A DNA stretch of 64,000 bases, taken from contig CACKMK010000001.1 of NCBI GenBank assembly GCA_902601345.1, forward strand, positions 111,810 through 175,809, read 5' to 3'. This stretch comes from an uncultured Candidatus Poseidoniales archaeon (GTDB taxonomy: Archaea > Thermoplasmatota > Poseidoniia > Poseidoniales > Thalassarchaeaceae). Below the pieces are notes generated by a model. That model searched no databases. It was not told the origin of the DNA and saw only the letters and a program-made list of their open reading frames with translations. Below, one piece after another: positions 33,010 to 47,054 of the stretch (position 1 is its first letter; every line of letters begins with the position of its first letter). The translations under genes were made by a program, and so were the position numbers.

Positions 33010-34239
33010 ATGGGTTCACGCGGACGTGTGAACAACGGTACCCCTGAAGAGCCTCGCAAGGTCGAAAGCCCGTTCACTATTTTCTCTGACCCGTCAACTC
33101 TCCCCCATATCGTCCTACTTGTGATATTCTCAGGCTCTCTGTATGGTGCAATGAGTATGGATGTATTCGGATCAGAAAGTCAAGGCGCAGCAATATTTGT
33201 GTCACTGTCGTTATCATACATGGTTGCGGCATTGATTCGTCCCAGCAGATTGGGAAAATTCCTACTAACAGTCGAGAGCAATGGCGAAGGAATACTAGAT
33301 AGGAAATACCTAGCCGAAGGTCTGGTCAAGACTCTACCTGTTATTGCCTTGGCAACCTTAATCTGGTATTTCTTGAACACCATTCTAAATAAAGAAAATT
33401 TGAACGATTTGAAATTGATTCTAGCAATGTTGTTCATTGCAATGTCGTTGTTTCAGGGACTTACTCTGACTGTTGGTTGGGTTGAGTACGGAAAGAAAAT
33501 CAGAGGCCCACCCAGAGATAGTAGGACTGGAGCTAATCCAACGCTATTGAGAATAGTAATTTCCTTGCTTCTACTCGTACCTTTAGTTTGGTGGTTTGGA
33601 TATGGAGCAATTAATCCCTCAAATGCGAATTTTTCGACTAACTTTGTATGGTTCATTTTCCTTATCATAATTGTTTTTCTGGGAGTGCTGATGGAGCGTT
33701 ACACGAAATCATCCAGAGGGGAGGTGGGAGTAGATGGAAAAGCTCGTGACAGGGTGTACTTTCTTATTTTCATAACTTCCTGCTGGCATCTTCTAGGTTC
33801 ATGGAGAAGGGCCCCGTTCACTGTTGATCAGTCCTCAGTCGGCCTCTTTATTGAAGAAGTCTTTTTGATGTCAATCACTATAGTTTTGGCTGTCTGGTCA
33901 TTGTCAAAGAAAGGGCATAAAAGAGATTGGAGGATTTTCCAAGGGCAATCAGCAATTTTCTGGGGAGTATGTTTCGGACTTGCATATTGCGGCAGTGTAT
34001 CTTCCTTGACTGTGCTTTCTGAGGGCAGCCTAATGACAACAACTTCTATTGGACATGCTATCACTGCGATTGTGATGTTAGCTATCTGTCCAATCGCGCT
34101 CTACCGTGTAGGTCTATCCGAGGAATTGGGGGTACGACCTGAGGCTTCTGAGCATTCACTGACTCCTGAGGTAGAGCCTCATTCCCAACCTATTCCAGCT
34201 GAAGAGTCTGGAGATGATATCGTTGAGATTGTGCGCTAG
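33010..34239 (+). CDS. Multi-pass membrane protein of unknown function
   Basis: 409 aa; about ten hydrophobic segments by eye. Confidence 0.7.
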   Translation: MGSRGRVNNGTPEEPRKVESPFTIFSDPSTLPHIVLLVIFSGSLYGAMSMDVFGSESQGAAIFVSLSLSYMVAALIRPSRLGKFLLTVESNGEGILDRKYLAEGLVKTLPVIALATLIWYFLNTILNKENLNDLKLILAMLFIAMSLFQGLTLTVGWVEYGKKIRGPPRDSRTGANPTLLRIVISLLLLVPLVWWFGYGAINPSNANFSTNFVWFIFLIIIVFLGVLMERYTKSSRGEVGVDGKARDRVYFLIFITSCWHLLGSWRRAPFTVDQSSVGLFIEEVFLMSITIVLAVWSLSKKGHKRDWRIFQGQSAIFWGVCFGLAYCGSVSSLTVLSEGSLMTTTSIGHAITAIVMLAICPIALYRVGLSEELGVRPEASEHSLTPEVEPHSQPIPAEESGDDIVEIVR

Positions 34240-35141
34240 AGGCCGCTAACAACGGCTACAAGCCGTAACCTTCCAACTAAATCATCGCTTGCTCTTGCAC
34301 CAAGAATAACCTGGCAATCCTCATCCAGGGTTGATACGAACGCCTCCGAAACCATGTTCAGGTGGCCAAGCGTCATATCTGGCCCCCCCTCGACTTGTAT
34401 CATACATCCCTTGGCCCCGTCAATTGATGTTTCTGACAGGGGCGAGTTTCTTGCCATCCTAACTACCTCATCTGGATCTGAAGTAGTCCCATTGCCTACT
34501 ATCAATGTTGCATTACCTGGCCTACCAACTATCGTTCGAAGGTCCATCAGGTCGAGATTCATCTTCCCGACTCTGGCTAGAGTTGTTACCAGGCCTTCAA
34601 TTAATTCCCCTATCCATTCTGACCCCATCTTCCAGTCAGATTCACGATGCCGAGCCTGCCAGGCAAGTCTCTCAAGGCTGACTCGAATGCACAGATCAGA
34701 GTTCCTCTCTATTGCGGGAATGGCCTTATCTGCAATAGCGGAACGTAGAGGTTGCTCGGCAAAGGGCATTCCAACAATACTGATTACAAGGCTTCCTGCC
34801 TCTACAGATCGAGCAGCGATTTCTGCGGCTGCACCGGATCCAGTTCCCCCTCCTAAGGCGGCAAGGATAATTACGAGTTCCGAGTTTTTTAGCATCGCTT
34901 GAATGTTGGCTATTCCTTCGTTGAGCCGATGTGCAGCCAAATTTGGCAGAGCGGCTGTTCCCTTGCCACTTCCTGATGCATCTAGATGAAGGCAATGGGC
35001 TTCATATTCAGAAGAGAAAGAAGATTCATCGGCATCAACAAGTAATAATTCAGAAAGTTTTTGACATCTACCGTGTGCACGTGATGACCACTTACAACCT
35101 ATACCACCAACGCCTACAATTAGTATGGATTCGGCTTCCAT
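34236..35141 (-). CDS. Divergent FtsZ/tubulin-superfamily protein
   Basis: 301 aa; VGVGGIGCKWS, tubulin signature LGGGTGSGAAAEIA, NLDLMDLRTIVGRPGNA, SIDGAKGCMIQVEGGPDMTL. Confidence 0.82.
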   Translation of the reverse strand: MEAESILIVGVGGIGCKWSSRAHGRCQKLSELLLVDADESSFSSEYEAHCLHLDASGSGKGTAALPNLAAHRLNEGIANIQAMLKNSELVIILAALGGGTGSGAAAEIAARSVEAGSLVISIVGMPFAEQPLRSAIADKAIPAIERNSDLCIRVSLERLAWQARHRESDWKMGSEWIGELIEGLVTTLARVGKMNLDLMDLRTIVGRPGNATLIVGNGTTSDPDEVVRMARNSPLSETSIDGAKGCMIQVEGGPDMTLGHLNMVSEAFVSTLDEDCQVILGARASDDLVGRLRLVAVVSGL

Positions 35142-35615: not shown

Positions 35616-36419
35616 ATGGCTACACCGCGTAAAGTATTGAGTATCTTAATTGTCTCGTTATTCGTTGCGGGATCCGGTGAGGCTCTGCATAGCGGAGTGG
35701 GCGGAAACGCAAACGGACAGGGTGAAGTTTCCATCGCCGGGTGCACTTGTCATGCCGAGGAACCAGACAACTCAGTTACCGTCATCATTGATGGGGTGCC
35801 ATTCCACTATGCACCGGATAGTTCCTACGAGATGAAATTGCAACTAATTGGGGGTCCGGAAGCGAATCTTGATTCGCACACTGCCGGATTTGCGATGACT
35901 GTCACCCAAGGGTCGCTTAGCGCCTCGGAAGGATCTGAGTCAATGGTTCAGAATTGGGAAGGGGACCCAGCCACCCTAACACATACCGATGCGGGTTCGA
36001 GGACTTCTGATAGATCGTGGATGTTTGTTTGGACAAGTCCGTCTGAAGGGTCTGGCTCTGTGGTTTTCAATGTTGCAGGGAACTCAGTAAACGGAGATTT
36101 GGCTCCATCCAGTCTGGATCGCTGGAACCGCCTCACGACCAGTATTGACGAAGGCGAGGACAATGGGAGAACAAAGACTGTATTCTCGGGGAACGGAGAC
36201 ATTAATCCTCCGGCCCCCGTTGAGGGTAAGAAAGACATCCATAAAATGGGTGCCAAGCTCCTAGCCCATTGGCTTGGACTTCTTGGCTTCGGGGCAGTAA
36301 TACTTGTGATTTTCTTCTGCGGTCTGTTCCTCAGATACGGCTTCTCCAGGAATTACAAAGGAAGGAGCAACCTACTGAAACTAAGAATAAAGCATCTAAG
36401 AAGAGGTGATCAACTATGA
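35616..36419 (+). CDS. Secreted Reeler/choice-of-anchor-V-like protein with CxCH motif and C-terminal TM
   Basis: 267 aa; signal peptide, GCTCHAEEPDNSVTVIIDG..., HTAGFAMTVTQGSLS, C-terminal TM and basic tail; just upstream of Rieske/cyt b genes. Confidence 0.7.
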   Translation: MATPRKVLSILIVSLFVAGSGEALHSGVGGNANGQGEVSIAGCTCHAEEPDNSVTVIIDGVPFHYAPDSSYEMKLQLIGGPEANLDSHTAGFAMTVTQGSLSASEGSESMVQNWEGDPATLTHTDAGSRTSDRSWMFVWTSPSEGSGSVVFNVAGNSVNGDLAPSSLDRWNRLTTSIDEGEDNGRTKTVFSGNGDINPPAPVEGKKDIHKMGAKLLAHWLGLLGFGAVILVIFFCGLFLRYGFSRNYKGRSNLLKLRIKHLRRGDQL

Positions 36420-36865
36420 AGGACGACGTAGTAATGAGGCTGTTACGAGAGGTAAAGGCCGGAAAGGTCAGTATCGAAGACGCAAGGGTCGCACTTGAAG
36501 ACGCCGCATTGACAGAAGAGGCCTTCGATGCAGCGGTGAATCATGGGGTATTCAACGAAGTCAAGCCAGGTACCATTGTGAGGGCAAGTCTGGCACCCTC
36601 CGGAGATTCTTGGCTGATTATAATGGTAGGCCTATGGGGCATTCTTTGGACCCTCTATTGGGCTGGCGCGTTGGCTTATGGCCTGTACCAACAGTGGGAT
36701 CAACAATTGCTGGCGTTTAACCTGGCAATGACGCTCCTTACGCTAATAATAATGGGAATTGTGTACCTAAAATATGTCTTGCCAGATGTAGTGATAGTAA
36801 AGCACAGGAGAAACAAGTACATAACGAGTCACGATACAAACTCTTGGAAAAAATATGAGGTCTAA
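36416..36865 (+). CDS. Small two-TM protein in Rieske/cytochrome b cluster
   Basis: 149 aa; overlaps upstream stop; two hydrophobic segments; followed directly by Rieske gene. Confidence 0.75.
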   Translation: MKDDVVMRLLREVKAGKVSIEDARVALEDAALTEEAFDAAVNHGVFNEVKPGTIVRASLAPSGDSWLIIMVGLWGILWTLYWAGALAYGLYQQWDQQLLAFNLAMTLLTLIIMGIVYLKYVLPDVVIVKHRRNKYITSHDTNSWKKYEV

Positions 36866-36867
36866 AA

Positions 36868-37716
36868 ATGGCAAGGAAATTTAAGCTACGTCCTATCTCC
36901 TCTGAGGATGATGTCACTCACGAGAGAAGCGGTGCAATAGACAGAAGGCAATTTATGAGGCTGTCTTTCAATACAGCAGCTGGATTGATTACCACCGCCT
37001 CATTAGGTAGTGTCGGATTTGCCTCCTTCCTAATGGGTCAATCGGAGGGAGGGTCATCCGATTCCGCAATAAAATTCTACGTTCCAAAGGGTTCTGATGT
37101 GTGGTACGGATCTATGGACAAACAGCCCATGACTTTGCAAGCCTTCGTAGACGAGTCAGCCAATACAACAACAGGAATGGTGGGAGCTGCCGGGTTATGG
37201 TCGGGTTTACCAATCATAGCAACTTATGTCCCACATGAGGAGAACAAAAACAAGCCATTAGAAGCAGGCACCCCTCGTTTCCAAATGATGGACGGGTACA
37301 CCGCAGGCGGGGCTTATGTAGGATCCGGGTACGAAATAGAGGAAAAAGAAGAGTATGCATCATTGAATATTCATGACAACCTAATCATAGTCTTCGCGAG
37401 ATGCCCTCACTTGTGTTGTATTCCCGGATGGCAACTCGTTAGCAACGACTTCACTGCGGATAGCTGGTTACCTGGTGGGACTGACTCTAGTGGAAACAAA
37501 TCATTCTGCATCTGCCACTCCAGCAGGTATGACCACACCGTAATTGAGAAGAATACAGCTAGAAACAGGTCTAATGGACAAGAATTTGACTTCATAGGTG
37601 TGAAGAAGACCGGTGGTCCGGCTCCATATGGGATGCCACTGATTCCGTTCACGGTGAATGGCGGAATGATAGAGGCTCTTCCAGATTTCATGGATTGGTA
37701 CACATTCTGCGGGTGA
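36868..37716 (+). CDS. Rieske iron-sulfur protein
   Basis: 282 aa; ARCPHLCCIPGW and FCICHSSRYD (CxH...CxxH with extra Cys pair); N-terminal membrane anchor after RRQFMRLS. Confidence 0.93.
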   Translation: MARKFKLRPISSEDDVTHERSGAIDRRQFMRLSFNTAAGLITTASLGSVGFASFLMGQSEGGSSDSAIKFYVPKGSDVWYGSMDKQPMTLQAFVDESANTTTGMVGAAGLWSGLPIIATYVPHEENKNKPLEAGTPRFQMMDGYTAGGAYVGSGYEIEEKEEYASLNIHDNLIIVFARCPHLCCIPGWQLVSNDFTADSWLPGGTDSSGNKSFCICHSSRYDHTVIEKNTARNRSNGQEFDFIGVKKTGGPAPYGMPLIPFTVNGGMIEALPDFMDWYTFCG

Positions 37717-38598
37717 GTGAAAAATATGATTCAATTCTGGTTCTTGTGGATTTTCATTGCCTTCGTAGTCGTGATTGTAGCCTTCACGCTCAGAAGAGAG
37801 AGGGACGACATGCCGAGGAAGGACATCTTGAGGGCCGTGGAGACAAATGCCGGTAGCATGGGATTGGCCGAGAAGTTGTTCCTCTGGGCCTTTTCTTGGC
37901 TAGACACCAGATTTAGGATTCAAGACTATTGGGGTATGAGCAAAGATTCCTACTACAGCATGCATCGCCAGATGCCATTGACCCACGCCGAAAAATACAA
38001 ACTGAGGATAATCTGGTATTGGTACCCTCTCTATTGCTTAGGAGGGATTTCATTCTTGGCGTTCATAATCTTGGTAATTAGCGGGACCATACTAGGATTT
38101 TATTACGTGCCCGGGGGAGACTTAGACTCAGATCCGACACCAGCCTACGCATCAATGGAATTCATCATGCTAGAGCTACCCTTCGGATACATCATCAGGT
38201 CTATTCACCATTGGACCACGCATTTCTTCGTAGCAGCCGTATTTCTGCACATGTGCAGAGTCTATTTCACCGGTGCGTATAGAAATCCGAGAGAGCTAAA
38301 TTGGTTGATTGGAGTCGCTTTAATGTTCTTCTCGATATTCTTCGGTTACTCTGGTTATTTGTTACCTTGGGACAGCTTGGCATTCGGAGCCGCCACCATC
38401 GGAATCAACATGGCGATGGCCACCCCTCTGATTGGGGAATGGGTGGCCAATGCGATGTTTGGCGGAACAACACTGACGGGCCAGACAGTCGTCAGGATGT
38501 ACTTCCTACACGTTTTTGTACTACCGCTGATTGTAACAGTACTGATTTTGGCCCATCTTTTCATTGTCTGGGTTCAAGGAATTGCGGAGCCGCACTGA
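37717..38598 (+). CDS. Cytochrome b N-terminal domain protein (b6-like)
   Basis: 293 aa; RSIHHWTTHFFVAAVFLHMCRVY, YRNPRELNWLIG, GYSGYLLPWD, second His pair in YFLHVFVLP...LAHLF. Confidence 0.94.
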   Translation: MKNMIQFWFLWIFIAFVVVIVAFTLRRERDDMPRKDILRAVETNAGSMGLAEKLFLWAFSWLDTRFRIQDYWGMSKDSYYSMHRQMPLTHAEKYKLRIIWYWYPLYCLGGISFLAFIILVISGTILGFYYVPGGDLDSDPTPAYASMEFIMLELPFGYIIRSIHHWTTHFFVAAVFLHMCRVYFTGAYRNPRELNWLIGVALMFFSIFFGYSGYLLPWDSLAFGAATIGINMAMATPLIGEWVANAMFGGTTLTGQTVVRMYFLHVFVLPLIVTVLILAHLFIVWVQGIAEPH

Positions 38599-38607
38599 GG
38601 TGATTAT

Positions 38608-41421
38608 ATGGGTCTGATTGAGAGATTTGGAAGGATTGCTGACACATATGTCAGTGAGAAAGAGCAATTGCTAGGAGCAGAAGAGGAAAGGAGGAGAGTC
38701 CACACAGGGCACGGTTTTTGGCCTACTGAAGTACTCAGAGATACAATAATTTTCGCCTCGATTGTGATGGTTATAGCATTCTACTCTTGGATTATCCCCC
38801 CACCTTTGCACAACGCTGCGGACCCGTACGCGCAAGCTGGTTTCGTCTTCCCTGACTGGTACGTTCTGTTCTCTTACGGATACCTAAGGTGGGGCGAGTA
38901 TTTGCCACAGTTTGACATCCCTGCTGGGCCGATAGGGGAGTTCTTCGGTCAGCCAATCGTGTCTTGGAACGCCGGAGTGTGGGGGGCAATGATTACCGGG
39001 ATTCCAGTAGCAATTCTCGCCCTGCCACCATTCATCATCGGAAAAAGGGAAAAGAGGGGCGTTGAGGATCCGTGGTTCGCTACAGCGGGAGCAGTATACC
39101 TGGCGCATGTGTGGTTCATCTCTGTATTCTCGATAAACATCTTCCTCGAGATGTACGGCCAGAATCGAAGCGATTACTGTTGGGCAGGTCCTCATGGAAC
39201 ATTTTTCTGCGGAACTCAGCCACCATGGACTGCTGAAGTATTCAATGCGGTTCCGTGGATCCTTACCGGTGTTTTCATCTTCGTTGTCCTATATTTCTCG
39301 GTCAGGAAGTTCCTGATTGGTCCGATGGGTTCCAGGTTGACTCCCGTTCTTGGTAGACAGGTGGCCGTCGGGTCTTTGGTCGCAACCGTTCTACTCTGTA
39401 CGGTTACTTGGCCGGTTTACGAGAATGGTTTCTGGAACCAAAGAGGACTTGGGACTATGGGATTCTGGGAGTACCAGTATGATGCCAAGCTGGAGGAGTT
39501 GGATGGGATAAGAGGGCAACCAGGGGACACCCTGATACACGTAGAAAAGGGACCCGTGTGGGAAGAGTGGGAGGATGAGTGCCTTCCGTACGAGCAAACT
39601 AGCTCTCTGTCTGTCTGGGAAACTATGGAAGAGGGGACAACTCATTCGGAATGGTGTGTCTTGCCCGCGAAACATTTTGTAAACTGGGGGATCTTTCAGC
39701 CTACTCGTAGTCAGATAATAGACTTCAGCGGAGTCAATGAGCACGCGGATACTCAAACATCCAGGAATATAGGGGCAAATGAGGTCATCTATCAAGGTTC
39801 AGATGATGGCAGCCCTATCTCAATTTCTGAATCTATACAATTCGAGGTTGAGGACCTTGGAATATCGAAAGTTCAGACAGACATAGGTTGCAACTTCAGA
39901 ACCACCGTGCGAAACGCAGGTGACCACGCTCAGAGTTTGACGCTGACTGATGATTCGGGGCAGGAAATTTGGTCGAATTCGGGTTCTACTTGCGAGTCTG
40001 GCACAATTTACCTGGACTCTGGGAGATCATACACAATTTCCTTCACAACTAACTCTGAGCAGGTCAATGACTCAGTTACCATGATTTCGGACTTCTCAGC
40101 AGTATCCTATCAGCCTCTACTACTCAAGGAAGACGGGACGGCACTGATAAGATCGGAAGTTAGCCTTAGCGATGAGGAGCTGGCATCGTTATCAGTGACA
40201 AATCCGACCTTCCAGAAAAACCCAAAGAGCCTTGATGCCAAGCTAATTTACTCGATGTTCATACCGTGCTTGGGTGTAGGGGCGCTAGTTTTCATGTTGC
40301 TCAGGAGTATGGCTCGCGGCTACGAGTGGGAAATGAACAAGTGCTATGGATGCGATTTGTGTGACGATGCCTGCCCTGTTAGGTTGTTCAACGCTGGGGA
40401 TAAACTGAATATAATCTACAACACGTGGAACAATGAAGACGATGGAGTCCCACTTTACTCCTGCCTGACCTGCACGGCATGTACCAACGCATGTCCACAA
40501 TTGGTTGATTACGACTCATATATCGATATTAGAAGGAATCTTGTGGTAGGTGGCCCCCCTGCTACGGAGATACCGCACACGGTGCTGCAGGCGGTACTAG
40601 CTGCAGAGGCGGAAGAAGACGCAGACGACTCTTTCATACCCGTGGAGGATTACCCGTTGGACTCTAGCATAGGATACTATCCTGGATGTGTAGACTATAT
40701 TGACCAAGAAATGGTCTTCAGCCATGTGAATAAAGGAACAATGGATCTTGGAGATGCGACGACTTCAGCTTTCACGATTTTCGAAGAGATGGGAGAGGAT
40801 GTAACATACCTGGGTCGAGATTTCTTGAAATGCTGTGGGCACGACCAAAAGTGGCAAGGGATGAGTGAGGTTTTTGAGAAGTTGAAGGCTTACAACCAGA
40901 AAAAGCTCGGGGAGAGCGGGATTGAGACACTAGTCACTTCTTGCGCTGAGTGTTTCAGGACCTTTGCTCTAGATTACGAGCTGGATGACATGAAAGTGAT
41001 GCACACGACAGAGTTCCTAATTGAGAATGGATTCGACATGAATCTGAAGTCAAACGACGAAGTCACAGTGACTTACCATGACCCGTGCAGGTTGGGCAGG
41101 CAAATGAACATCTATGATGAGCCGCGGGATCTAGTAGGCTCTGTAGAAGGAGTGAATCTAGTGGAAATGGAGCATACCGGCGAAGATGCCCTATGCTGCG
41201 GTGTCTCAAGCATGATGTCCTGTAATGAGAACAGCAGGGCGCTAAGGGTTCAGAGATTCGATGAAGTCAGGGAAACCGGAGCGGACATTATGCTCACTTC
41301 ATGCCCAAAATGCGTAGCGCACTTCGAGTGTCTGAAGTTCGAGGGAGACCCAAGACATGATTTCGAGATTCTAGATGTAGTGAGCTTCCTAGCCAGGCAG
41401 ATAGAGGAATCGAAAAACTAG
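38608..41421 (+). CDS. Fusion: cytochrome b C-terminal (subunit IV-like) membrane domain + extracytoplasmic insert + HdrD-like 2x[4Fe-4S]/2xCCG module
   Basis: 937 aa; VFPDWYVLFSYGYLR (PEWY-equivalent), several TMs, then CYGCDLCDDACP, CLTCTACTNACP, and two Cx(n)CCG...CxxC domains (YYPGC...KCCGHDQ...SCAEC; HDPCR...LCCGVSS...SCPKC). Confidence 0.92.
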   Translation: MGLIERFGRIADTYVSEKEQLLGAEEERRRVHTGHGFWPTEVLRDTIIFASIVMVIAFYSWIIPPPLHNAADPYAQAGFVFPDWYVLFSYGYLRWGEYLPQFDIPAGPIGEFFGQPIVSWNAGVWGAMITGIPVAILALPPFIIGKREKRGVEDPWFATAGAVYLAHVWFISVFSINIFLEMYGQNRSDYCWAGPHGTFFCGTQPPWTAEVFNAVPWILTGVFIFVVLYFSVRKFLIGPMGSRLTPVLGRQVAVGSLVATVLLCTVTWPVYENGFWNQRGLGTMGFWEYQYDAKLEELDGIRGQPGDTLIHVEKGPVWEEWEDECLPYEQTSSLSVWETMEEGTTHSEWCVLPAKHFVNWGIFQPTRSQIIDFSGVNEHADTQTSRNIGANEVIYQGSDDGSPISISESIQFEVEDLGISKVQTDIGCNFRTTVRNAGDHAQSLTLTDDSGQEIWSNSGSTCESGTIYLDSGRSYTISFTTNSEQVNDSVTMISDFSAVSYQPLLLKEDGTALIRSEVSLSDEELASLSVTNPTFQKNPKSLDAKLIYSMFIPCLGVGALVFMLLRSMARGYEWEMNKCYGCDLCDDACPVRLFNAGDKLNIIYNTWNNEDDGVPLYSCLTCTACTNACPQLVDYDSYIDIRRNLVVGGPPATEIPHTVLQAVLAAEAEEDADDSFIPVEDYPLDSSIGYYPGCVDYIDQEMVFSHVNKGTMDLGDATTSAFTIFEEMGEDVTYLGRDFLKCCGHDQKWQGMSEVFEKLKAYNQKKLGESGIETLVTSCAECFRTFALDYELDDMKVMHTTEFLIENGFDMNLKSNDEVTVTYHDPCRLGRQMNIYDEPRDLVGSVEGVNLVEMEHTGEDALCCGVSSMMSCNENSRALRVQRFDEVRETGADIMLTSCPKCVAHFECLKFEGDPRHDFEILDVVSFLARQIEESKN

Positions 41422-41711: not shown

Positions 41712-42098
41712 ATGCCAATCAAACTCACTATGATAAGGGTGGACTTGATGGAAACAGTGAGGAACATGACCAAAATCGATGATGTGCTCAAGAGGAGGGC
41801 TGTTGAGCAGTCAAGAATTAGGATGCAGCTCAACTCGGTTAGGGCTGAGGAGGAAGCTCTCCTGAAAGGCGGAGAGGACACAGTTGCGTGGGTTAAGGAA
41901 GAATTGTGCATAGGCTGTGATCAGTGCACTATAGTATGTGAGGATGATGCAATAGAGTTGTACGATACACCACTGCTAAGTCCTGTAATGAATGTGGATG
42001 TAAATAAAAAGGCAAAAATTCTGAGAGACCCTTGTACTGGATGCAAGATTTGTGTATTGGCTTGCCCGACCGATGCGATAATTATGATTGACAGGTGA
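41712..42098 (+). CDS. 2x[4Fe-4S] ferredoxin
   Basis: 128 aa; CIGCDQCTIVCEDDAIEL and CTGCKICVLACPTDAI. Confidence 0.9.
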   Translation: MPIKLTMIRVDLMETVRNMTKIDDVLKRRAVEQSRIRMQLNSVRAEEEALLKGGEDTVAWVKEELCIGCDQCTIVCEDDAIELYDTPLLSPVMNVDVNKKAKILRDPCTGCKICVLACPTDAIIMIDR

Positions 42099-43464: not shown

Positions 43465-44382
43465 TTACGAACCACCATCTCTAATCGACGAAACCAATAT
43501 TTCGATGGCCTCCCTAAGGGTTATAGAACCGTCACATAGTTCAGAAACGATATTGTCTATTTCAGGATGAGAAACTAAAACCGAATCCCATTCGGAGATT
43601 AATCTCTCCCTCATCATCATCTTTCCTCGTGCATTCTGAGGTTCGCATCTTTCTATGATCTCAACAAGTTCCTGGATGCCATGTCCTTCTTTTGCCGAAA
43701 CCAGGACAACCTCGCGATTGTCATCGCTCGCTAGATTTAGTGAGGAGCGTATATGCTGTGCTGCTGAAGACGCATTTGGCAAATCTGATTTGTTAACTGC
43801 AATTACATCTGCCAGCTCAAGAATCCCTGCTTTTTCTGCTTGGATGATGTCCCCCCTATCCGGGCCGTCAACAAGAAGTAGTCGATCTACCAAGGCGGCT
43901 ATTCTGAACTCAGACTGTCCAGTTCCTACAGTCTCAACAATTATTCGAGTCCATCCGCATTCAGAGAGTACACTACATATCGGCCAAAGGATAGGAGAAA
44001 TGGCACCTGGGGTCTTTCCAGAGGGTATAGACCTCACAAACACGTTCTCTTTCAGGTCATCCCCCTCCATTCTGATTCTATCAGCAAGCAAAGAGCCGCC
44101 GGATAACGGAGATGTGGGATCTAGGGCAAGTACAGCGACACGTTCACCTGTAGATGCCCATTTTCTCACCATCTGTCCGATAAGAGTTGATTTTCCCGAT
44201 CCAGGAGGCCCTGTGACTCCGAGAATCCAGCTCGTCGCTGAGTTGATACTTGGGGAGTCCCCGGATTCAGAAATTGCAGAAATGAGCATAGATAGGCTTC
44301 TTCGATCGCCTAATTTTGCTGATTCCAATAGACCACTGATGTCAGTCATTCCAATTCCACCCCAAATCGTCTCCGACTCCAA
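43465..44382 (-). CDS. meaB: MeaB/ArgK-type GTPase for methylmalonyl-CoA mutase
   Basis: 305 aa; GVTGPPGSGKSTLIGQMV, VAVLALDPTSPLSGGSLLADRIRM, IVETVGTGQSE. Confidence 0.95.
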   Translation of the reverse strand: MESETIWGGIGMTDISGLLESAKLGDRRSLSMLISAISESGDSPSINSATSWILGVTGPPGSGKSTLIGQMVRKWASTGERVAVLALDPTSPLSGGSLLADRIRMEGDDLKENVFVRSIPSGKTPGAISPILWPICSVLSECGWTRIIVETVGTGQSEFRIAALVDRLLLVDGPDRGDIIQAEKAGILELADVIAVNKSDLPNASSAAQHIRSSLNLASDDNREVVLVSAKEGHGIQELVEIIERCEPQNARGKMMMRERLISEWDSVLVSHPEIDNIVSELCDGSITLREAIEILVSSIRDGGS

Positions 44383-44782
44383 CTGGATTACCGTTTTGTT
44401 TTCGAATCAGAGCCTTATTCAAGAAATCTAAAACATCCGAAGTGGGAGTTCCGGGACCGAAGACTGCTCTGACACCAGATCGAAATAGGGCTTCTATATC
44501 TCTTTCCGGAATAATGCCTCCTGCGAACACAATTACACTTCCTAGTCTATTCTCCACTAGCTGCTCGCAAATCTTTGGTATTAGGGAATCATGTGCTCCA
44601 GAGAGCGTGGATAAGCCGAGAACCTCTGCATCCTCGTCGTTTACGATGCGTACAATCTCCTCTGGAGTCTTTCTGAGGCCAGTATAGATGACATCATGGC
44701 CTCCATCTCTCAATGCTCTGGAAATTACTTTTGCTCCTCTGTCGTGTCCATCTAGTCCAGGTTTAGCAATCACAATTCGCAT
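44342..44782 (-). CDS. Methylmalonyl-CoA mutase B12-binding subunit (stand-alone)
   Basis: MRIVIAKPGLDGHDRGAKVISRALRDGGHDVIYTG (DxHxxG); internal Met at 44782 chosen over the longer ORF. Confidence 0.93.
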   Translation of the reverse strand: MRIVIAKPGLDGHDRGAKVISRALRDGGHDVIYTGLRKTPEEIVRIVNDEDAEVLGLSTLSGAHDSLIPKICEQLVENRLGSVIVFAGGIIPERDIEALFRSGVRAVFGPGTPTSDVLDFLNKALIRKQNGNPVGVGDDLGWNWND

Positions 44783-44849
44783 GTTTATGTAAGTTGCAAG
44801 TGGCATTATGACTTCAAGCAACCGCATATGAAATTCCATTTTCTCAGGA

Positions 44850-46436
44850 ATGCTCATGTGCGGCCTATTCCCATTCACCCTCGTGAGTGGAAACTCCGAC
44901 AAGATTGACGAGCTCAGGCGTCGAAAGGCGAAGTCTCGATCAGGAGGGGGCCAAAATAGGATTTCGGCGCAGCACGCTAAAGGGAAGTTGACAGCGAGAG
45001 AGAGAATCCAAGAATTACTGGATGAGGACTCTTTCACTGAAGTTGATGCTTTGGTTGAGCACAGGTGTAGAGACTTTGATATGGATAGGAATATAATCCC
45101 TGGAGATGGAGTTGTTTGTGGTTATGGGACCATTGATGGAAGATTAGTTTACTGTTTTGCTCAAGATTTTACTGTATATGGTGGATCCCTAGGTGAGATG
45201 CACGGGCTAAAGATATGCAAAATTCTAGATATGGCACTGAAAACAGGAGCCCCAGTAATTGGTTTGAATGATAGTGGTGGGGCGAGGATTCAGGAAGGGG
45301 TCGCCAGTTTGGGTTCCTACGCAGAGATTTTCTTCAGAAACGTAAGATCGAGTGGAGTCATCCCGCAGATTTCTGTCATCATGGGACCATGTGCTGGAGG
45401 GGCAGTATATTCGCCTGCGATTACTGATTTCGTTGTAATGGTTGAAGAGACATCTCACATGTTCATTACTGGTCCAGAAGTTATCAAGACCGTTACGAAT
45501 GAAGAAGTAGGCTTCGAAGATTTAGGGGGGGCGACCACACATGCAACAAAATCAGGAGTAACTCACTTCACCGCAAAGGATGATCATGTAGCATTAGAAA
45601 TAGTTAGGGAGCTGGTATCACTAATTCCATCCAACAACCTAGACACTGCCCCTTCGATTGAGACTAGTGATCCACTCGAGAGAAGTTGCGATTCTCTGGA
45701 CTCTCTTGTTCCCGAGGATCCTAGTCGACCCTACGACATGGGCGAGGTGATTCAGGAGGTTTTAGACTTGGATAGTTTTCTAGAAGTTCAGGATGGTTTT
45801 GCTCCAAATATAATTATTGGACTAGGTAGGCTTGGTGGGCAGTCAATCGGAGTTGTGGCAAACCAGCCAATGCATCTAGCGGGTTGTTTAGATATCGACG
45901 CCTCAATTAAAGCAGCAAGATTTGTGCGCTTTTGTGACGCTTTCAACATCCCGCTGTTGACTTTTGTTGACGTTCCAGGTTTTCTACCGGGTGCTAGCCA
46001 GGAGTGGGGGGGAATAATCAGGCACGGTGCCAAACTGCTCTACGCCTTCGCAGAGGCAACGGTTCCCAAGATGACAGTTATCACAAGGAAGGCGTATGGT
46101 GGTGCCTATGATGTGATGTCATCGAAGCACATAAGAGGGGATTACAACATTGCTTGGCCGACTGCTGAACTTGCAGTGATGGGTGCAAAGGGGGCCGTGC
46201 AGATTATCCATAGGAGGAGAATAGGAAGTTCGAAAAATCCCGAGCAGGAGAGGCAAAGGCTAGTTGATGATTATGAGGAGTCGTTTGCAAACCCATACAA
46301 GGCTGCTGCATTGGGTTATCTAGACGATGTTATCGTGCCTTCCGAAACTAGGTCTGTTCTAGTCAAGGCATTGGGAGTAATTCTAGAGAAAGAAGAGCCC
46401 AGGCCCGAGAAGAAGCATGGAAATATCCCGTTGTGA
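44850..46436 (+). CDS. Acyl-CoA (propionyl/methylmalonyl) carboxyltransferase subunit
   Basis: 528 aa; [53 protein letters not shown]; start uncertain (GTG at 44884 also possible). Confidence 0.95.
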
Positions 46437-46638
46437 GATCATGAGCGCTGGGAAATTAGAGCCTGAGGAAATAGTCGCGGTTATCTCAGCAGTACTATTG
46501 AGCGGAGAATTGGGAGAGGTAATTGCTCCTTCTAAGGGGAGAGAACCTGGAAGTAACTGGTCGGTTTCGCATAGAAGGATGGCCTCGGGAAACTCCTCAT
46601 TGCTAAACTCCAAATCAAGTAGGAGCTCTAAGAGGTGA
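46417..46638 (+). CDS. Small carboxylase-associated protein (possible epsilon/delta-type subunit)
   Basis: 73 aa between carboxyltransferase and BCCP genes, overlapping both; [17 protein letters not shown]...[12 protein letters not shown]. Confidence 0.5.
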
Positions 46639-47054
46639 GTAGTTTGTCTGAGAAGAGGAAAGTGACTGTTAATGGAGTAGAGTACCAAGTGGAAATTCAA
46701 TTCGATGATGGTAAATGGGGGGTTTCCATAGATGGAAATTTGTACGAAGTCGAGATAGATCAAGGGTCGAGGAGAGGCCCGCGGAAGAAGCGAGATTCTA
46801 GCAGAGGAGGGAGCCCGAGTTCAGGACTTATTTCCTCAGCGATTCCAGGAAAAATAGTGGCACTACTAGTTACCGAAGGTGATAAAGTAGACAGTGATAG
46901 TGTAGTTATTGTACTTGAGGCGATGAAGATGCAAAACGAAATTAAGGCCGGTATTGATGGGAAGGTAGAGAAGATCATGTGCAAACCGGGAGAGAGAATT
47001 GAGGCGAATGTACCTCTAATGGAAATTGTGGATAGCAAAAAAGAGGTTGAATGA
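46635..47054 (+). CDS. Biotin carboxyl carrier protein
   Basis: 139 aa; VIVLEAMKMQNEIKAG biotinylation motif. Confidence 0.94.
   Translation: MSSLSEKRKVTVNGVEYQVEIQFDDGKWGVSIDGNLYEVEIDQGSRRGPRKKRDSSRGGSPSSGLISSAIPGKIVALLVTEGDKVDSDSVVIVLEAMKMQNEIKAGIDGKVEKIMCKPGERIEANVPLMEIVDSKKEVE

Follow-up and report, generated by a model that had tools for sequence, protein, structure and literature searches.

Fusion of a predicted b6f-type subunit IV to an HdrCB-like iron–sulfur module in Poseidoniales archaea, a candidate ferredoxin inlet to complex III

The operon and its fused gene

The window analysed here, 64,000 nucleotides from an uncultured Candidatus Poseidoniales archaeon of the Thalassarchaeaceae (contig CACKMK010000001.1, positions 111,810 to 175,809), carries a plus-strand operon for a Rieske/cytochrome b complex. 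Its genes encode a choice-of-anchor V protein with a CxCH motif (GCTCH; 35616..36419; NCBIfam NF041895, 2.4e-24), a DUF7318-like small membrane protein that is a conserved operon member (36416..36865; Pfam DUF7318, 1.3e-5, just under the cut-off), a Rieske iron–sulfur protein with ligands CPH...CICH (36868..37716; motif scan, and NCBIfam Rieske_proteo at 5.5e-8, under that model's cut-off), a b6-type cytochrome b (37717..38598; PF00033, 5.6e-41), a fusion protein directly downstream of the Rieske and cytochrome b genes (38608..41421) and a dicluster, RnfB-like ferredoxin (41712..42098; Fer4_21, 8.2e-12; nearest NCBIfam model rnfB, 5.2e-11, under the cut-off). Near the operon lie a short FtsZ/tubulin-family protein on the minus strand (34236-35141; Tubulin 3.9e-17, FtsZ_C 1.1e-16), with similar-looking genes near the operon at two other loci (L064 and L065), and an ordinary methylmalonyl-CoA cluster (43465-47054; carboxyltransferase, biotin carrier, MeaB and a B12-binding mutase-like protein).

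The features of a b6f-type complex found in the operon were the Rieske 2Fe-2S ligands, a four-helix cytochrome b with two histidine pairs (H164/H178 and H265/H280), a P(E/D)WY motif in subunit IV and the cysteine associated with heme c(n). The five best PDB matches of the cytochrome b were all cytochrome b6 (3.9e-41), and its Cys107 aligns with the cysteine of the b6 motif YCLGG, which binds heme c(n) in b6f; from this one cysteine, a heme c(n) is predicted on the cytochrome b. The arginine that holds the propionate of this heme in b6 (Arg207 in spinach; PMC9342900) seems not to be conserved (WVQG here versus IRKQG in b6). Among the operon genes read there was no cytochrome f, only the CxCH-bearing choice-of-anchor V protein, whose gene is conserved in fused and most unfused operons and which is a possible electron acceptor of the Rieske protein. 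The motif reads CxCH in Marine Group II (MGII) and Marine Group III (MGIII), CTSCH in L103 and CVSCH in the L135 protein. A CVSCH-type sequence is the canonical heme c motif, and the choice-of-anchor V protein may be an unusual c-type cytochrome that takes Rieske electrons.

The fusion gene starts nine bases past the cytochrome b stop, with GGTGAT just upstream, and runs as one uninterrupted frame of 937 amino acids, in which subunit IV with PDWY is succeeded by an extracytoplasmic insert, one more helix, a pair of 4Fe-4S motifs and, last, two complete CCG domains. This frame and its motifs had been described in an earlier note on this DNA, and the reading frame, Pfam (CCG twice, 9.7e-23, and Fer4) and the cysteine positions bear the description out. 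The subunit IV core (residues 41-185; 38728..39162; homology, profile, hydropathy) has three helices, with PDWY at the Qo position, and is followed by two additional, order-specific helices (residues ~206-270; 39223..39417; hydropathy, AF2, missing in fused relatives outside the order), which AF2 places at 206-236 and 246-276. Next come the extracytoplasmic domain (residues 271-545; 39418..40242), the equivalent of helix H, which takes the chain to the cytoplasm (40243..40311), the HdrC-like module with 4Fe-4S cysteines 579/582/585/589 and 619/622/625/629 (40324..40527) and the HdrB-like module (40657..41418) with CCG1 cysteines 694, 742/743 and 779/782 and CCG2 cysteines 827, 863/864 and 899/902. 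Hydropathy and charge predict six transmembrane helices, with both termini and the Fe-S part inside and residues 271-545 outside, so that the Fe-S module is, by predicted topology, cytoplasmic. The earlier note had correctly recognized an extracytoplasmic insert but had sized it at about 250 residues rather than 275 (~271-545) and had missed two helices (214-232 and 252-270). The ectodomain, which had no Pfam match, is partly beta in the predicted structure, acidic and has a conserved Cys 428/462 pair. The structure model of the whole fusion was too weak to use (mean pLDDT 52.8), and that of an insert-free relative was better but still weak (65.4); a fold search with the latter matched the Fe-S part to EtfD, LutA and HdrB and gave a weak cytochrome b match.

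Recognition of the N-terminus required relatives and a family profile, Pfam on the fusion alone being insufficient. Stand-alone subunit IV proteins of about 234-273 amino acids occur in other Thermoplasmatota in the same operon (choice-of-anchor V, DUF7318, Rieske, cytochrome b, subunit IV), and eight of them matched residues ~4-233 of the fusion (BLAST, 1.6e-24 to 2.3e-16). Against the PDB, the family profile matched bc1 cytochrome b (3.3e-9) and b6f subunit IV (8.6e-8). The co-occurrence of Cytochrom_B_C and CCG in one protein, which the earlier note had proposed to look for, was absent by Pfam from the window protein, which had no Cytochrom_B_C match; a fused relative (L059) and two of the stand-alone proteins tested (L099 and L104) passed the Cytochrom_B_C cut-off. 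By these homologies, the N-terminus of the fusion is subunit IV of a b6f-type Rieske/cytochrome b complex.

Occurrence and history of the fusion

Both families of the order, which is Marine Group II-like, have the full-length fusion, at 61-96% identity. In two further Thermoplasmatota families it occurs minus the insert (789 amino acids in L059/L136, the Thermoplasmata isolate nzgw66; 606 amino acids in L060/L137). In MGIII, subunit IV is fused to HdrC and HdrB is the next gene, the split falling just before HdrB. The order-wide conservation of the intact fusion rules out a chimera or assembly artefact, a judgement made without reads from the recurrence in both families and from the similar G+C content across the domains. 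In a few fragmentary metagenome-assembled copies (G001, G014 and G109) the frame is shifted, at different places, probably through assembly errors and possibly through a genuine gene split in some strains. Outside the phylum, one scan with two short patterns yielded confirmed loci titled only Euryarchaeota, MGIII, Poseidoniia or Thermoplasmata, plus one contig labelled as a Chloroflexi bacterium (L134; NZTZ01000011.1), which carries the MGIII operon and looks mis-binned; a search of viral contigs for the fusion gave no match.

Unfused subunit IV ends in YEfnLNrtYYkvR, and the same stretch in fused proteins reads YEfkLNrCYqCglCddiCP; because the HdrC-like module starts exactly at this end (YE.xLNrtYYkvR), the Fe-S module was evidently added at the natural C terminus of subunit IV. 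In a tree rooted on EtfD-like proteins, the cytochrome-b-linked HdrB sequences formed one clade (100/99) relative to HdrD-like and EtfD-like proteins, and the Hdr part was therefore recruited once. The cytochrome tree placed the Hdr-linked rows on one side of a branch (100/99.9) only with the long-branched L103 left out; with L103 included, their monophyly was not rejected (p-AU 0.27). The simplest history read from these sequences would be one recruitment, after which the gene was split in MGIII and the two helices and the ectodomain were inserted in MGII. An unfused subunit IV elsewhere (L100:4994-6733) carries an independent insert of ~250 amino acids, LamG-like by eye, in the loop equivalent to the MGII ectodomain.

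Electron carriers, rival donors and a proposed route

Wherever the gene neighbouring the Hdr module could be read, it encoded a redox carrier. In MGII, a dicluster ferredoxin lay within 2.1 kb of the fusion in 32 of the 34 genomes holding both genes; the MGIII partner is a ferredoxin fused either to a Sulfolobus-type Zn-ferredoxin (1xer, 9.2e-28) or to a flavodoxin (Flavodoxin_1, 6e-27); L059 has a double ferredoxin; and L060 has an HdrA-like FAD protein (3e-16; L060:5435-6379), directly downstream of the fusion and truncated where the contig ends. As electron carriers, ferredoxin and flavodoxin classically stand in for each other, and their exchange at this position marks it as one of electron delivery. 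The domain that replaces the Zn-ferredoxin in some MGIII is CysJ-like (L063, L127-L130 and L132-L134, downstream of HdrB), a change that scarce iron in surface water may explain. POR, which reduces ferredoxin, was present in the genomes tested, the near-complete MGII ones among them (as a sub-threshold fragment only in G124), except that none was found in the incomplete window genome. NuoF was absent from every MGII and MGIII genome tested and, among all genomes tested, present only in G063; most had a complex I membrane subunit, and a complex I without NuoF could be an alternative ferredoxin oxidiser. Electron-transferring flavoprotein (ETF) is also encoded in these genomes.

Our preferred reading, put forward with modest confidence, is a complex III of b6f type in which a ferredoxin inlet is hard-wired to the cytoplasmic quinone site (Qn). 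Helix H of subunit IV would continue into a cytoplasmic HdrC-HdrB relay; ferredoxin reduced by 2-oxoacid:ferredoxin oxidoreductase would pass its electrons to the operon's dicluster ferredoxin and on to the CCG and 4Fe-4S clusters, and these would deliver them to Qn, probably via heme c(n) on the cytochrome b. There, ferredoxin electrons would meet the electron returning from Qo via hemes bL and bH, forming quinol that would be reoxidised at Qo, with electrons leaving through the Rieske protein to an acceptor, and the whole complex would act as a proton-translocating ferredoxin oxidase. We infer the direction of flow and the identities of donor and acceptor, and it is the gene neighbourhood that suggests ferredoxin oxidation by the complex. 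The reading is favoured because of the subunit IV homology, the b6-type cytochrome b with its heme c(n) cysteine, the inside location of the Fe-S module, the clean fusion point, the single HdrB clade, the redox-carrier neighbours, the presence of POR and the absence of NuoF. A ferredoxin–heme c(n)–quinone route has been proposed for cyclic flow in plant and algal b6f (PMC9342900), and EtfD reaches quinone by the same kind of relay (PMC13083937). Against it stands the seemingly missing heme c(n) arginine, and the link between cysteine and module is loose, because the position is Ser in many MGIII that nonetheless keep the module, Cys in L103 without the module (T, S or A in other unfused lineages) and has few evolutionary transitions.

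The earlier note had suggested a Rieske/cytochrome b complex covalently wired to a cytosolic Hdr-like module, which homology, conservation, topology and the HdrB clade support well, and had added a disulfide or bifurcating two-electron site. Such a quinol-driven enzyme, in which low-potential electrons from Qo would reach two noncubane clusters by way of bL, bH and the HdrC clusters and there reduce a thiol disulfide, appears unlikely. It would account for the retention of all ten HdrB cysteines in the 937-amino-acid protein, including the last Cys of each CxxC, which exceeds what a simple relay needs and argues against one in MGII; for the lack of EtfD's ligand histidine (PMC13083937; CAEC instead of CxHC, with the CC pair kept); and for the closest relatives of the Fe-S module, which are HdrD-like cytosolic proteins from within the phylum, in some cases carrying an FlpD/MvhD domain (MvhD-HdrCB). 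However, whereas MGII has two CCG domains with all cluster cysteines, CCG1 in MGIII has lost a ligand, most copies reading CSG and the rest CAEG: either the CC pair lacks its second Cys or the final Cys is gone. Conservation thus does not extend to the paired noncubane site, and the disulfide idea, though possible, is weaker than the ferredoxin inlet. The two losses occur at different MGIII loci (CAEG or CSG: L061 and L117-L119 versus L062, L122 and L130). Nor is a disulfide substrate evident, and the partner genes encode ferredoxins (including the Zn-ferredoxin type), flavodoxin or HdrA, which leaves the earlier chemistry unsupported, the ten kept cysteines apart.

Still less probable is an EtfD-like inlet for ETF or another flavoprotein dehydrogenase. 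EtfD is the top PDB match by both sequence and fold (1.9e-21 and 1.6e-36; 9.5e-13 for the relative L136), and a donor ETF is encoded, but MGII has its own separate EtfD-like protein of 662-678 amino acids, with its own membrane domain and CPHC (CxHC) and CSG signatures, which makes ETF an unlikely donor to the fusion. The fusion, by comparison, has no CxHC, its second Cys is not replaced and its membrane part is subunit IV instead of a five-helix b-heme domain; the module also clusters with HdrD-like rather than EtfD-like proteins, and the adjoining gene encodes ferredoxin, not ETF. The least probable reading is that an HdrA-type complex, bifurcating or confurcating through flavin, docks on complex III and couples a cytosolic donor to both ferredoxin and quinone; it rests on the HdrA-like gene that adjoins the fusion in L060 only, ferredoxin or flavodoxin taking that place in MGII, MGIII and L059.

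Beyond the ferredoxin inlet itself, we tentatively propose, as an idea that may well not hold, a complex III class of its own, where a ferredoxin electron and a Q-cycle electron meet at the cytoplasmic quinone site, making a proton-translocating ferredoxin oxidase of aerobic marine archaea. In MGII, cytochrome b and Rieske have been reported in the absence of a canonical bc1, together with a lone RnfB (Tully et al. 2019, PMC6336850). The operon behind that report is very probably the one described here, and its isolated 'RnfB' probably corresponds to the ferredoxin at 41712-42098; in the available part of that account, the hidden subunit IV and Hdr fusion do not appear. The hidden subunit IV and the adjacent ferredoxin probably explain both the missing bc1 and the lone RnfB. 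No published description of the fusion was found in the open literature, most subscription journals lying outside our coverage; its parts are known families, and the proposed function would be new. The fusion accounts for the half of complex III that was missing from these abundant marine archaea, and it is a concrete candidate for the reoxidation of reduced ferredoxin in aerobic archaea, a stated open question (PMC2946596). If the ferredoxin inlet is real, ferredoxin electrons are fed straight into complex III in abundant ocean archaea, and a natural fusion points to electron entry on the cytoplasmic side of a b6f-type complex, as a covalently wired version of a debated b6f cyclic-flow route; such entry in photosynthetic cyclic flow is proposed and unproven (PMC9342900).

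Comparison with known systems

The complex resembles b6f in its split cytochrome b, b6-type histidine spacing (14/15), heme c(n) cysteine, P-D/E-W-Y in subunit IV and Rieske gene in the same operon, and differs from it in that no cytochrome f was seen, the arginine holding heme c(n) is seemingly absent and subunit IV is extended by helix H, by an ectodomain specific to the order and, at its C terminus, by an HdrCB module. That module, otherwise familiar from methanogens, has the layout of HdrD and HdrBC, the two CCG domains coming after the two 4Fe-4S motifs and all ten HdrB cysteines being present. Unlike those enzymes, it has a bc-type cytochrome b as membrane partner, through subunit IV, rather than NarI-type HdrE, has HdrA beside it only in L060, has lost CCG1 ligands in MGIII and belongs to hosts described as aerobic (PMC6336850). 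With EtfD (ETF:menaquinone oxidoreductase), the best PDB match, the fusion shares a membrane-anchored 4Fe-4S and CCG wire to the quinone pool; it differs in its membrane domain, in lacking the CxHC ligand and in having a ferredoxin neighbour instead of ETF, with an EtfD-like protein encoded elsewhere in the genomes.
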